Below are positions 7,733 through 43,347 of a DNA stretch of 43,347 bases, piece by piece. The translations under genes were made by a program, and so were the position numbers. The stretch is from a virus: positions 1 through 43,347 of the IMG/VR virus record IMGVR_UViG_3300033153_001096, one strand, 5' to 3'. How positions within the stretch are numbered: the first letter of the stretch is position 1; the number at the start of each line of letters is the position of its first letter. Below the pieces are notes generated by a model, which did no database searches, was not told the DNA's origin, and saw only the letters and a list, made by a program, of their open reading frames with translations.

Positions 7733-8251
7733 ATGATTAATGTAAAAGAATTAGATAGTAAATCAAAGAAGACAGCTATAGAAGCCGAACTGATTACAGG
7801 GGCTAACCCTCGTAAGCTGTCTGAGAAGTACGACGTACACTACTCAACTGTTATGACCTACAGAACTGCCTTACGTGAAGCAGGTACAGAAGACGTTAAA
7901 GTGCTGAATGACGCAGATTTAGGTCTAGTAAAGGCAGTAGCTGAGGAAATAAAACAGAGAGCTGTGGATGCTGAGATATTACCTAGTAACAGGGCTGATG
8001 CTAAAATAGAGGCTATAATAAAAGGAACTAATGGACTTAAATCGCTTACTGATGAGTTCCAAACTACTATAACTAAGCTTTTACATCAAGCTAATAGTTA
8101 CATTAATGATGATATGAAGCTATCTGAGTTCCGACAAGTAGCTACTACAGTAGGAGAACTACATGAAAAGACTTTTTCTAAGGGTGGTACTCAAGTTAAC
8201 GTACAACAGAACAATGGAGGCTCAGGCTTCTCTTCAGGTATGGTAAACTAA
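7733..8251 (+). CDS. terS: Terminase small subunit (probable)
   Basis: A 172-residue protein with an N-terminal helix-turn-helix (about residues 15-50: AELITGANPRKLSEKYDVHY, then STVMTYRTAL), a long helical centre suited to ring formation, and a flexible Gly/Asn/Gln-rich C terminus (VQQNNGGSGF). It ends at the base where the large terminase gene begins (TAATG), and this pairing is the main support. Small terminases bind the packaging site and feed DNA to the large subunit. A ribosome site (AGGAGAAG) precedes the ATG. Confidence 0.8.
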   Translation: MINVKELDSKSKKTAIEAELITGANPRKLSEKYDVHYSTVMTYRTALREAGTEDVKVLNDADLGLVKAVAEEIKQRAVDAEILPSNRADAKIEAIIKGTNGLKSLTDEFQTTITKLLHQANSYINDDMKLSEFRQVATTVGELHEKTFSKGGTQVNVQQNNGGSGFSSGMVN

Positions 8252-10020
8252 TGGATACGAAACTAATAGAGGGATTAAAAGCCCTTATTAACCCAAATGC
8301 TTGGTATTTAGCTATTAGTGAAGACGACTTCGACGTAATATATGGTGGACTCAACATAGATAAGCGTAGATTTCGTATACCTATTGAGTCTGTTAAGGAC
8401 GAAGAGACCTTTAAGTGGTTATCGCAGTCTAAGCTATGGAGACTAAACCATTGGTATACTATTATTGACAAGGATGGTAATAAACTACCTTTCAAAATGA
8501 ATAGAGCCCAGCACCTAGCGTTTGCTAGACAGCTTAAACACCCTAGGTCTATCATCCTCAAATCGAGACAACGTGGTATATCCACTTTCTTCCTTATTAA
8601 CTACTTTGATGATGCTATAACTCTACCCAATCTGACAGTAGGTATGCAGTCATACGGACTAGAAGAGTCAGCGGCTTTGTTGGAGAAACTAACAGTAGCA
8701 TGGGAAAGCTTGAATGAGTATATCAAAAATAGTTTATTAGGTGTTGGATTAGTTAAGAACAATACTAAAGCTATGTCATTTACTAATGGTTCACAGGTTA
8801 AAGTGGCTACATCTTTCCGTGGTACTACTCTACACCGACTCCATGTATCTGAGCTAGGTAAGATAGCTAATAAAGACCCTAAGAAAGCACGTGAGCTTAA
8901 GACAGGTACCCTACAAGCCATTAAAGCTGGTAACCCTGCAGCTATTGAGTCTACAGCAGAGGGTCAGCACAACGCATTCCACGAATGGTGGTATGTGGCT
9001 GTCGACTTGGTAGATGAGAGAACTCTTAAAGACTTCGACCCTGTATTCCTGTCATGGGTTGATGACCCTGATTGTCAACTAAGTGTAATGCAGATAGAGT
9101 CAGACGAAGACAAACTAGAGTTAGCTAAAATAGAGGAAGAGTGGATTGAGTACTCAGGTGTAAGCAAGGACTTCAGGTTAACCCCAGGTCAACGAGCATG
9201 GTTCGTAGCCTCTAGACGTGAGCTAGGAGATAAATTCTACCAAGAGTACCCACACACTCCAGAAGCAGCATTTGCAGCTGTACGTGACGGAACATACTAT
9301 GCGAAACTATGGCGGAATGAGGGTAATGTATATGGAGAAACGATTGAAGTACGTCAACCTGATGGGTCTGTGGTTAAACAAAGACTACTGACTAATGGAC
9401 GTGAGCGACTTTATGACCCTCTACTACCTGTCCACACCGCTTGGGATTTAGGTGTCAACGACGTTATGGTTATTATATTCTTCCAAGTATTTGGTGCTGA
9501 GTTACGCGTGATAGATGAATACCACAACTCTGGTGAGGGGCTTGAACACTATACTCGTATGTTAGCTAAGAAAGGTAAGGTCGAAGGGTATAAATATGGA
9601 ACTGCTGTGTTACCTCATGACGCAAAAGTATTCGAGATGGGAGCTAGTATGACTCGTAAAGCCCGTTTACGTGAGCTAGGAGTTAGAAAGGTCAAAGTGT
9701 TACCTAGAACTAAAAGCGTTAATACCGATATCGAGCAAGTCCGTAAAGCTATACCTAAGATGTGGATTGACCCTATTAAAGCTAGTTATATCCTTAAGAT
9801 GATGGGTCGGTACTCGAAGAAGTGGGACGAGATACTTGGTAACTATAAAGATAAACCCTTGCATGATGAGTGGTCTAATCCAGCTGATGCAGTTCGTTAC
9901 ATGGTTATGGCACGTATGCACAAAGGCATGTCAGCTATTGAGAATAGTAGTGAGGGCGGTCGTGTAGGCGGTGGTCAACGTAAAAGAATTAGTAACGTGG
10001 TAGATGGCATGGCACTCTGA
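8251..10020 (+). CDS. terL: Terminase large subunit (packaging ATPase and nuclease)
   Basis: A 589-residue protein with both terminase domains. The ATPase has an adenine-site region (NRAQHLAFARQL, about 84-95), a variant Walker A (KSRQRGIST, 104-112) and a Walker B-like segment ending in SELG (200-203). The C-terminal RuvC-like nuclease has AWDLG (D399), LPHDAK (D457) and HDEWSNPADAVRY (539-550). It powers DNA entry into the prohead and cuts concatemers. It is on the opposite strand from the portal and capsid genes, unusual because these are commonly co-oriented. The P22-like portal and circular assembly hint at headful packaging. Confidence 0.93.
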   Translation: MDTKLIEGLKALINPNAWYLAISEDDFDVIYGGLNIDKRRFRIPIESVKDEETFKWLSQSKLWRLNHWYTIIDKDGNKLPFKMNRAQHLAFARQLKHPRSIILKSRQRGISTFFLINYFDDAITLPNLTVGMQSYGLEESAALLEKLTVAWESLNEYIKNSLLGVGLVKNNTKAMSFTNGSQVKVATSFRGTTLHRLHVSELGKIANKDPKKARELKTGTLQAIKAGNPAAIESTAEGQHNAFHEWWYVAVDLVDERTLKDFDPVFLSWVDDPDCQLSVMQIESDEDKLELAKIEEEWIEYSGVSKDFRLTPGQRAWFVASRRELGDKFYQEYPHTPEAAFAAVRDGTYYAKLWRNEGNVYGETIEVRQPDGSVVKQRLLTNGRERLYDPLLPVHTAWDLGVNDVMVIIFFQVFGAELRVIDEYHNSGEGLEHYTRMLAKKGKVEGYKYGTAVLPHDAKVFEMGASMTRKARLRELGVRKVKVLPRTKSVNTDIEQVRKAIPKMWIDPIKASYILKMMGRYSKKWDEILGNYKDKPLHDEWSNPADAVRYMVMARMHKGMSAIENSSEGGRVGGGQRKRISNVVDGMAL

Positions 10021-10027
10021 TAGAGTG
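10013..10027 (+). terminator. Short hairpin at the terL stop codon
   Basis: CACTCT-GAT-AGAGTG forms a 6-bp stem with a 3-base loop followed by TTTAT. It includes the TGA stop. It is weak for an intrinsic terminator but well placed to end terminase transcription before the non-coding region. Confidence 0.4.
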
Positions 10028-10476
10028 TTTATGCGATTTATGCTTATTAGTGCTTATCGGTAGGTTAAATTCGGTAGAAATTTTTTAGGGTGGTTAGTGT
10101 TATTAGTGCTTAGTAGGGTTATTAGAGGCTTATATCTGATAGGGCTGATGGACAACGACAGCCCGTCGCTGGGAACACCTACCCCTTAACTAAATATAAC
10201 CTAATAGACCTATAATACACAACAAACCTAATAACACCTTATAACACCTAAACAAATATCACAACCATATCACATTTAATAAACAGGCAAGTGCTACCAT
10301 ACTACACACACCTATTAGGTTTATCACTCATTAAGCTAACTATAAGGCTAACTATGTTAATTATAATACTATATAACTAGTAGGTTGAGTGACTTAATAA
10401 AGAATTACAACACTTAAGCTACAGTTAAGGTAGAGTAGGCTATACTACGTATACAAGATAACAACAGGGAGCTAAG
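10028..10476. other. Non-coding region with abrupt strand-composition flip; candidate origin or packaging site
   Basis: No gene is visible in these 449 bases. The left part is GT-rich on the plus strand (10021-10140: I count about 32 G and 8 C). The right part is AC-rich (10201-10320: about 7 G and 32 C). Between them is the only GC-rich stretch, with a hairpin GGGCTG (10142-10147) / CAGCCC (10159-10164). The left part holds a 13-bp direct repeat, TTATTAGTGCTTA, at 10044 and 10100. The right part holds tandem ATAACACCTT / ATAACACCTA (10231-10250), related to the left motif in inverse orientation. The whole resembles a degenerate palindrome. An origin of replication or a terminase recognition site fits the position after terL and before the early genes. 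Confidence 0.5.
10424..10447 (+). promoter_or_regulatory. Promoter-like 24-bp motif, second copy
   Basis: It contains TTAAGG, ten bases, then TATACT, and aligns with the copies at 7637 and 12530. It lies 30 bases before the ATG at 10477, a plausible place for an early promoter. Confidence 0.5.
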
Positions 10477-10599
10477 ATGTTCATAACATACAAGATAGAG
10501 AACAGAGTAAATACACTTAGAGTTAGTTTAGCTAATGCGTTTAATGCTATAGCTAAGTTATTAAAATACAATATAGAGATTATAGAGGTAAGGAGCTAA
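10477..10599 (+). CDS. Small early protein, unknown function
   Basis: A 40-residue protein (MFITYKIENRVNTLRVSLAN at the start). A ribosome site (AGGGAG, 5 bases before ATG) is present, and the stop lies 1 base before the next ATG, whose own ribosome site AAGGAG lies inside this gene. It follows a promoter-like motif directly. It has an amphipathic helix and no recognisable motif. Such first early genes often act on host functions, but nothing in the sequence proves this. Confidence 0.6.
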   Translation: MFITYKIENRVNTLRVSLANAFNAIAKLLKYNIEIIEVRS

Positions 10600-15962: not shown

Positions 15963-18275
15963 ATGCACCCTATAACAACTATACAACCATTTATAGATTT
16001 AGAGTTATACACAGTACCTCTTAACGGCAAGAGTATACACCGTAATACTAAAGGTAAGAAAGAGGGCTACTCATTCCCTAGTGATTGGCAAAAGAGGTAT
16101 TCAGACGAGCTTAACGAAGTAGCTAGTGTTACTGGTGGACTACTTACTAACCATACTACAGTAGTAGCTATAGATTGTGATGATACAGAGACATACAACC
16201 TATTCAAGTCACTAGACCCTACTAACACAGCATACTTTGACAGTATAGGTAAACTAGACAAGGAGGGACAACCACTAGTTGCAGGTACTATACTATATAA
16301 AGGGCATACTAATATCCCTGCTTCATTCCGTTCAACTAATGGTTATGACCTAGACTTCTATAATGGTAGTGGTATGGTATTCTTACCTACTAAAGCTAAC
16401 AGCACTAAAACTAGTTGGTTAATGGACGAAGACGACACTCTATATAACCACAACGAACAAGCAGTAGTTATAAAAGATATGCCTTTAGCAGTCATTAGCT
16501 TACTAAACCTAATGAAAGCTAAACCTATAGAGACAGGAGTAGCTAACACAACAGTAGCTAAGCGTTCAAGAGGTACACTAGGTAGAGTATTAAGTAATAT
16601 GGACTTAACTAATGGAGACTATATCCCACAGCTAACATATATACTTACTCCTAAAGAGTATAGAAGTGAGCTATATAAGAAACAAGGACATTTACATCCT
16701 AATGACATTAATGGCTCAGGACATATGTACCTATTCAAGATAGCTTGTGCAGTAGCTAGTGACTCAACAGTAGATAAGGATATGTTTATAGACCTAATGG
16801 ACTACTTAAACGAGTTATGGGATGACCCTATGCCATCTAAACTACTTAATAAAACAATAGTTGCACCTATAGTTACAGGTAAACAGACTAACTCACAAGG
16901 AGAGGCTTACTGGGCTTATGACGAGCATTGGGAGGAGGCTGGAGGCTTCGCTCTTACTTCTAAGAGAGATAATGAGCTATTAGATGTATTCTATGATAGT
17001 GCTAAGAAGTCTTACTTTGTATTCTATACACAGCAAGAGAAGCTAGACGAGTTTGCTAAACGTGCAGACCTACTTAACCACCTAAAGGACACAGCTACAG
17101 CTTTTAATAAACTAGACGCTGATGGTATGAAAGACGTACATACATTCAACCAACCTACTAGAGATTATGGGTTCTTTAATGAGGATAGAGACTTCAACCT
17201 ATTTAGAGCTGGTGAGTCACTACAGATACTACATGACCCATCTAGGTGGAAAGATAACTATAAACGACCTACAGAGTTTGTTAACTATATAGAGCATTTT
17301 ATTCCTAGTGAAGAACAACGCTCATACTTCCTTAGTTTACTAAGAACTAAGTTAACTACATTCGGTTATAGCCCTGTAGTTCCTTATATTATAGGTATAC
17401 AAGGTAGTGGTAAGAATACTATAATGAACGTACTTAAGAATATAATAGGTTCACAGTATGTAAAGACAGATATAGGTGGAGAGCAGTTTCTAGCTCAGTA
17501 TAATGACTACCTAATGGATACTTACTTTGTTCAGCTTAATGAGTTAGGAGATACAGTAACAAGAGCCTCAGATAAGAAGAAAGCACAAGGACTTCTTAAG
17601 AACTACACAGGCTCTAATGTGTTTGAGTGTAGACGAATGTACCGTGACCCGTTCACATATAACCAAACAGCTATGTTTATACTAACAGCTAATGATAGTC
17701 CTCTTACTATAGAAGACTCTGATAGAAGATTGTACTATATAGCTACACCTAACACGTTTGATAATAGTCCACAATGTGTAGCTAGTAGTCCTGAGATTAT
17801 ACACAGAGCTATAATGAGTCAGACTAATGACATAGCTTACTACTTAGCTACAGAAGTACATAACCTACAAGGTAGAGACTACGGTAGAGCACCTGAGGCT
17901 GAGGGTAAACAAGAGATGGTATTTGGCTCACTAAACAGTTCAACTAAGATAGCTTGGGCTTTAGCAGGACAAGAGTTTGACTTACTCATGGAGTGGTTAA
18001 TAGACCCACACGCTATATTTAATGCAGAGGTAACACAGAATAAAGTATGGCTACCCATGCTAGAAGAGGCTTATGGTCACCACAGTAGCTCAGATGAGCC
18101 TAGTACAGTTATGAAACTAGCTATGAAGGCTCAAGGTATGCAGATACAGTTTGGGTCGTATAAAGGTAACACAAACACAGGCTACTATATAGTACCACAT
18201 ATCTCAGACTATGATGGGTGTAGTATACCTACAGACGACGAAGCAGAAGATATTAAACTATCTATAAGGAATTAA
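15963..18275 (+). CDS. Primase-helicase: Prim-Pol domain plus SF3/D5-type helicase
   Basis: This 770-residue protein combines two replication activities. The N-terminal bifunctional primase-polymerase-like domain has VVAIDCDD (the acidic DxD at about 71-73) and a later strand with DLDFYNGSGMVF. The C-terminal half has a D5/DUF5906-like region (YGFFNEDRDFNLF, about 402-414) and an SF3-type ATPase: Walker A GIQGSGKNT (478-486), Walker B-like YFVQLNELGD and motif C AMFILTANDS. It should make primers and unwind the fork, together with the family A polymerase downstream. It replaces the T7 gp4-type DnaB-like primase-helicase. Confidence 0.88.
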   Translation: MHPITTIQPFIDLELYTVPLNGKSIHRNTKGKKEGYSFPSDWQKRYSDELNEVASVTGGLLTNHTTVVAIDCDDTETYNLFKSLDPTNTAYFDSIGKLDKEGQPLVAGTILYKGHTNIPASFRSTNGYDLDFYNGSGMVFLPTKANSTKTSWLMDEDDTLYNHNEQAVVIKDMPLAVISLLNLMKAKPIETGVANTTVAKRSRGTLGRVLSNMDLTNGDYIPQLTYILTPKEYRSELYKKQGHLHPNDINGSGHMYLFKIACAVASDSTVDKDMFIDLMDYLNELWDDPMPSKLLNKTIVAPIVTGKQTNSQGEAYWAYDEHWEEAGGFALTSKRDNELLDVFYDSAKKSYFVFYTQQEKLDEFAKRADLLNHLKDTATAFNKLDADGMKDVHTFNQPTRDYGFFNEDRDFNLFRAGESLQILHDPSRWKDNYKRPTEFVNYIEHFIPSEEQRSYFLSLLRTKLTTFGYSPVVPYIIGIQGSGKNTIMNVLKNIIGSQYVKTDIGGEQFLAQYNDYLMDTYFVQLNELGDTVTRASDKKKAQGLLKNYTGSNVFECRRMYRDPFTYNQTAMFILTANDSPLTIEDSDRRLYYIATPNTFDNSPQCVASSPEIIHRAIMSQTNDIAYYLATEVHNLQGRDYGRAPEAEGKQEMVFGSLNSSTKIAWALAGQEFDLLMEWLIDPHAIFNAEVTQNKVWLPMLEEAYGHHSSSDEPSTVMKLAMKAQGMQIQFGSYKGNTNTGYYIVPHISDYDGCSIPTDDEAEDIKLSIRN

Positions 18276-43122: not shown

Positions 43123-43347
43123 TATAATTTCCTTCCAATTACTAGTCTTCCAACGTGTTCGCTGTCAGATTCTTCTGTATGATATCCAAACTGATATCCA
43201 CCTATAACATAGTAGAATAAATACTTAGGTCTATTCTCTTCCCATTGCATATACTTAAAGTTATAAGCAGTGTTACGAACATTCCACAAGTAAGCCATTA
43301 AACCACACCAATTAGATTCTATAGTATCACCTAAAGTAAAAGCATTA
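43122..43347 (-). CDS. Phage protein of unknown function, C-terminal part (other side of the circular junction)
   Basis: This is the 3' part of the gene that starts at 458. It continues the frame from the left edge, contains GGYQFGYHTEE and ends in LVIGRKL, with its stop overlapping the collar-protein ATG. Bases 43234-43347 duplicate 1-114. The full protein is 189 residues and of unknown function. Confidence 0.85.
   Translation of the reverse strand, partial: NAFTLGDTIESNWCGLMAYLWNVRNTAYNFKYMQWEENRPKYLFYYVIGGYQFGYHTEESDSEHVGRLVIGRKL
43234..43347. repeat. Terminal direct repeat, right copy
   Basis: It is identical to bases 1-114. Trimming one copy gives a circle of 43,233 bases in which no gene is broken. 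Confidence 0.95.

Follow-up and report, generated by a model that had tools for sequence, protein, structure and literature searches.

The locus downstream of terL

The window, by which the whole stretch of DNA analysed is meant, is the entire IMG/VR virus record IMGVR_UViG_3300033153_001096 (43,347 bp); positions 1–114 and 43234–43347 overlap over 114 bp and the map closes on itself. After terL the early and replication genes run on the plus strand to about 30.06 kb, and the structural genes occupy the minus strand. A primase/helicase-type protein is encoded at 15963–18275; it matches Kafunavirus-like phages at 31–36% and the primase of Nitratiruptor phage NrS-1 weakly (E 3e-6, part of the length only); no relative of it was confirmed in the viral contigs searched. 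PDB sequence searches with TerL and TerS returned no informative relative.

The interval that runs from the stop codon of terL (10020) to a small ORF at 10477 is non-coding, as a sequence-only reading of the window had stated, and the direct repeat, the GC-rich hairpin and the right-hand decamers described in that reading were all recovered (Table 1). Apart from this 13-bp direct repeat, no exact 13-mer of the genome recurs within 100 bp. A consensus promoter scan of the region made no call at 10341–10470.

Table 1. Features of the terL-to-early-gene junction and its flanking genes (window coordinates).
Feature	Position	Strand	Remarks
terS	7733–8251	+	
terL, gene directly before the module	8251–10020	+	PHROG terminase large subunit
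Late-side G/T-rich arm with direct repeats, proposed packaging-recognition segment	10021–10150	+	G:C about 33:9; relatives' repeats likewise placed
13-bp direct repeat, copy 1, TTATTAGTGCTTA	10044–10056	+	
A/T run ATTTTTTAGGG	10080–10090	+	conserved in the two closest relatives
13-bp direct repeat, copy 2	10100–10112	+	56 bp from copy 1; surrounding block conserved in the two closest relatives
GC-rich hairpin GGGCTG...CAGCCC	10142–10164	+	
Core motif copy, proposed terminase cut region	10164–10185	+	EM motif; best match in genome
Early-side C/A-rich arm	10186–10340	+	decamers at 10226–10251; would be the start of the terminal repeat if the ends are of DTR type
Probable early promoter region	10341–10470	+	TTATAATA at 10361–10368 conserved in the two closest relatives
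First small early ORF after the module	10477–10599	+	40 aa

An abrupt change of plus-strand G:C from about 32:8 to 7:32 had been claimed for this interval and was borne out: the counts are 33:9 at 10030–10149 and 6:33 at 10165–10284. Scored with 120/120-base windows, the flip at 10152 reaches 55, the largest value in the 43 kb (next 39 and 33), with z 5.6 against all genome positions. The cumulative skew, proposed as a check on the same claim, has no turning point at the module; its extremes, a minimum at 7.3 kb and a maximum at 30.05 kb, coincide with gene strand switches. The further proposal of a decayed palindrome of iteron-like units, left repeats against right decamers, was rejected: the best inverse match between the arms is 10 exact bases, equalled in 14–16% of composition-preserving per-arm shuffles, a chance level explained by the pairing of a G/T-rich arm with a C/A-rich arm by composition alone.

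The junction module and its core in relatives

Relatives of terL were gathered from viral contigs, species genomes and annotated phages (Edwardsiella phages KF-1, IW-1 and ETP-1, Vibrio phage VPMS1, Pseudoalteromonas phage PH1, Dickeya phage Amaethon and uncultured podoviruses). Most terL homologues are followed by direct repeats, then a GC-rich core near GGACTGGCCCTAGCCC, then early promoters and the first early gene; in the closer relatives of the window a C/A-rich stretch separates core and promoters. The module lies between the end of terL (late) and the first early gene in the window and most relatives. Strong late-side direct repeats were found in 17 of 35 relatives, often about 50–60 bp apart (56 in the window), and they often contain A/T palindromes (TTAATAAATTTATTAA, for example). 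The KF-1 genome has just two copies of the palindrome AATAAATTTATT, both inside the module. The two closest relatives align with the window at the block TTAAGTGTTATTAGTGCTTATTAGGG, at CCTACCCCTT and at TTATAATA, with a hairpin in about the same place. Repeat sequences vary between relatives and the GC core stays constant; loss of the repeats in relatives, which had been named as evidence against the site along with a missing skew turning point, was not seen, and repeats and core are kept.

Some peculiarities of single genomes were recorded: in PH1 (L007, 7823–8180) the core is followed at once by a short unit around GGACGTCTA, repeated many times; KF-1 ORF-3 (L005, 2312–2500), a minus-strand annotated ORF inside the junction just after the core, is probably not a real gene; a Sulfurovum sp. 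MAG contig (L090, DAOUPF010000037.1), a terL relative with 53% in the best segment, has an extremely G/T-rich stretch after terL, and its Sulfurovum bin may point to a host among the Campylobacterota.

Motif discovery by EM (zero or one site per sequence) in 63 non-redundant regions, the window being among the training sequences, gave the motif gCCCcCGGaCTGgCCCTAcCCC with LL 303, against 81–92 in four dinucleotide shuffles. The window core is a moderate match, yet the best in its genome (14.2 vs 10.9 for the next), and CCTACCCCTT is conserved among close relatives. When 29 held-out loci were scanned whole on both strands, the top match fell on the plus strand, ≤650 bp after terL, in 21 (chance about 5%; binomial p about 1e-21, to be taken as a guide only, some loci being related). 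Core copies are almost the same even between phages with about 40% difference in TerL, a sign that the core is recognised by its sequence. In certain relatives a core could not be recognised; when two 32-mers from the core were run by BLAST against the phage collection, one gave a weak chance match and the other none.

Across the set of relatives the compositional flip is significant (Fisher p about 2e-16; Wilcoxon p 5e-5 for left against right). Of 44 genomes, however, only about a quarter show it strongly, and KF-1 lacks it; as a universal mark of the module it was rejected. The core is the constant, diagnostic part; the skew flip is not defining.

Changes in the surrounding gene order leave the orientation of the module towards the early genes unaltered. 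In L304 (contig 3300003691_000016) it lies, apparently intact, about 3.5 kb beyond terL, directly before the early genes, the insert carrying three unknown genes besides one for dihydrofolate reductase. In five genomes (L055, L088, L064, L073, L054) the module does not follow terL, and a similar GC-rich one flanked by repeats is placed upstream of terS in inverted orientation. The cores of this group are weaker matches, with positions partly set by context; in L055 and L088 the core lies upstream of terS and points the other way from terL. L055 has clear late-side repeats, L088 does not, and L064, L073 and L054 have a region similar to the inverted module of these two. Read on the strand towards the early genes, the late side of the five is G-rich (42:13, 41:12, 39:14, 20:15, 26:12), as in the window. 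Both in L304 and in the inverted genomes the module still stands at the late/early border; its skew inverts along with it, so that module and skew track the early genes and not terL transcription. The module is therefore a property of the DNA at the late/early junction rather than of a transcript.

In L055 and L088 scaffold and capsid genes follow terL on the same strand and the divergent genes were taken as early, an arrangement that amounts to a large rearrangement around the junction module. Two arrangements of the structural genes occur in one terL clade, either on the strand opposite to terS-terL or after terL on its own strand.

Proposed packaging site and genome ends, and rival readings

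For cobaviruses with mapped direct terminal repeats (DTRs; by PacBio in ICBM1 and ICBM2) a conserved GC-rich 5' end was noted by the authors (PMC6775973). The core motif, trained without cobaviruses, had its best match in the whole ICBM2 genome at DTR base 10, and in ICBM1 matches of ranks 2–5 fell at DTR bases 10 and 29; it was not found at the DTR start of RIO-1. A G-rich to C-rich change marks the DTR start of ICBM1, ICBM2 and RIO-1 and is absent at the DTR starts of T7 and Pseudomonas phage tf.

The circular ETP-1 record was opened inside the core, with GGTCCGGT on one side of the break and GCCTAGGGTCCCC on the other, which fits a fixed cut but is suggestive only. The ends of four IMG/VR contigs fall within the core region or a little beyond it; most nearby breaks are in repeats. 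The IMG/VR end repeats were rejected as proof of physical ends, since many are 127 bp long, a k-mer overlap, and several lie in local repeats; because relatives' end repeats are so often of 127 bp, the 114-bp repeat of the window is probably an assembly overlap as well, rather than a physical terminal repeat. Metagenome contigs of the clade break just after terL far oftener than just before terS-terL, mostly in direct repeats. The papers searched on Kafunavirus, KF-1, PH1 and ETP-1 gave no statement on genome ends, and neither mapped termini nor a packaging mode was found in the papers searched for any member of the clade (Kafunavirus, VPMS1 and PH1 relatives).

The conserved core with its held-out matches after terL, the KF-1 palindrome confined to the module, the displaced and inverted copies, the partial likeness to cobavirus DTRs, the T7 position, the ETP-1 break and the contig ends favour a packaging segment with a cut near the core, and on balance we lean towards the region being the packaging recognition and genome-terminus site, placed as in T7. 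The RIO-1 mismatch, the missing flip in T7 and tf, the preponderance of breaks in repeats, record ends that are mostly k-mer overlaps and so leave room for circular permutation, the relatives lacking a core, and the weaker, partly context-placed cores of the inverted group count against this assignment. TerS would bind the late-side repeats and TerL would cut concatemers at the core or close beside it. Of the two ends so produced, the left one would begin with the C-rich arm and hold the early promoters, being packaged last and injected first, and the right one would lie on the side of terL. Short direct terminal repeats, with a predicted length of about 100–200 bp, are tentatively favoured over cos overhangs. 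More broadly, and more tentatively, the junction may be a packaging/terminus module shared by a large podovirus clade, made up of spaced A/T-palindrome repeats and the GGACTGGCCCTAGCCC core with a G-to-C switch in part of its members, moving and inverting as a unit and marking the late/early border whatever the gene order.

The sequence-only reading had offered the region as replication origin or packaging site; the packaging half is the better supported, by a conserved junction module in the position of the T7 repeat, and the origin half lacks a global skew turning point. An origin is the main rival all the same, albeit an unlikely one: the direct repeats and A/T palindromes would be initiator (primase-helicase) sites, the A/T-rich flank would unwind, and the flip would record a strand switch at initiation. 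The repeats and palindromes themselves, the direct repeats adjoining an A/T-rich segment as in iteron origins, the proximity to early genes and the encoded primase/helicase-type protein agree with it; the cumulative GC skew, turning elsewhere, the partial likeness of the core to mapped genome ends in two cobaviruses, and repeats that differ between relatives around a constant GC core do not.

Next stands a headful pac site, at which packaging would start and yield circularly permuted genomes without fixed ends. Relatives do assemble as circles, and repeats with a fixed cut region would suit a pac site too, but the end overlaps are mostly assembly k-mers with no sign of permutation, and the ETP-1 break and the contigs that end at the core speak slightly more for fixed ends; we consider this reading improbable. 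A transcription boundary or structured RNA, that is, a terminator of the terS-terL transcript with an early leader, is very improbable: a T-run and hairpin follow terL in some relatives (e.g., L002) and early promoters follow, but the window region has no intrinsic terminator (stem then T-run), folds with z -0.65 and gives only weak Rfam matches, none at gathering score, and the core is conserved as an exact sequence in a module that, with its skew, is inverted relative to terL in five genomes.

No earlier description of a packaging/terminus module of this kind was found. The module offers a testable site in most genomes of the clade (Kafunavirus, VPMS1 and PH1 relatives), dozens of metagenomic genomes can be oriented and linearised by its core motif, and the moved and inverted copies form a natural set for working out terminase recognition.

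Comparison with known systems

In a cos site of the lambda type (cosN + cosB) a GC-rich core adjoins spaced terminase-type repeats, as in the module, which differs in lying usually downstream of terL and not upstream of terS. T7, with its short repeats near the ends, shares the order terL – terminal repeat – early genes; there is no sequence kinship, the T7 DTR starts without a flip, and the ends proposed for the window are predicted ones. In the cobaviruses ICBM1 and ICBM2 (Zobellviridae) terL lies elsewhere and on the other strand, and the A/T palindrome AATAAATTTATT is absent; the partial likeness consists in a C-rich ACCCCCTAGCCC-type motif at the 5' end of the repeat and in the change from G-rich to C-rich at the DTR start.
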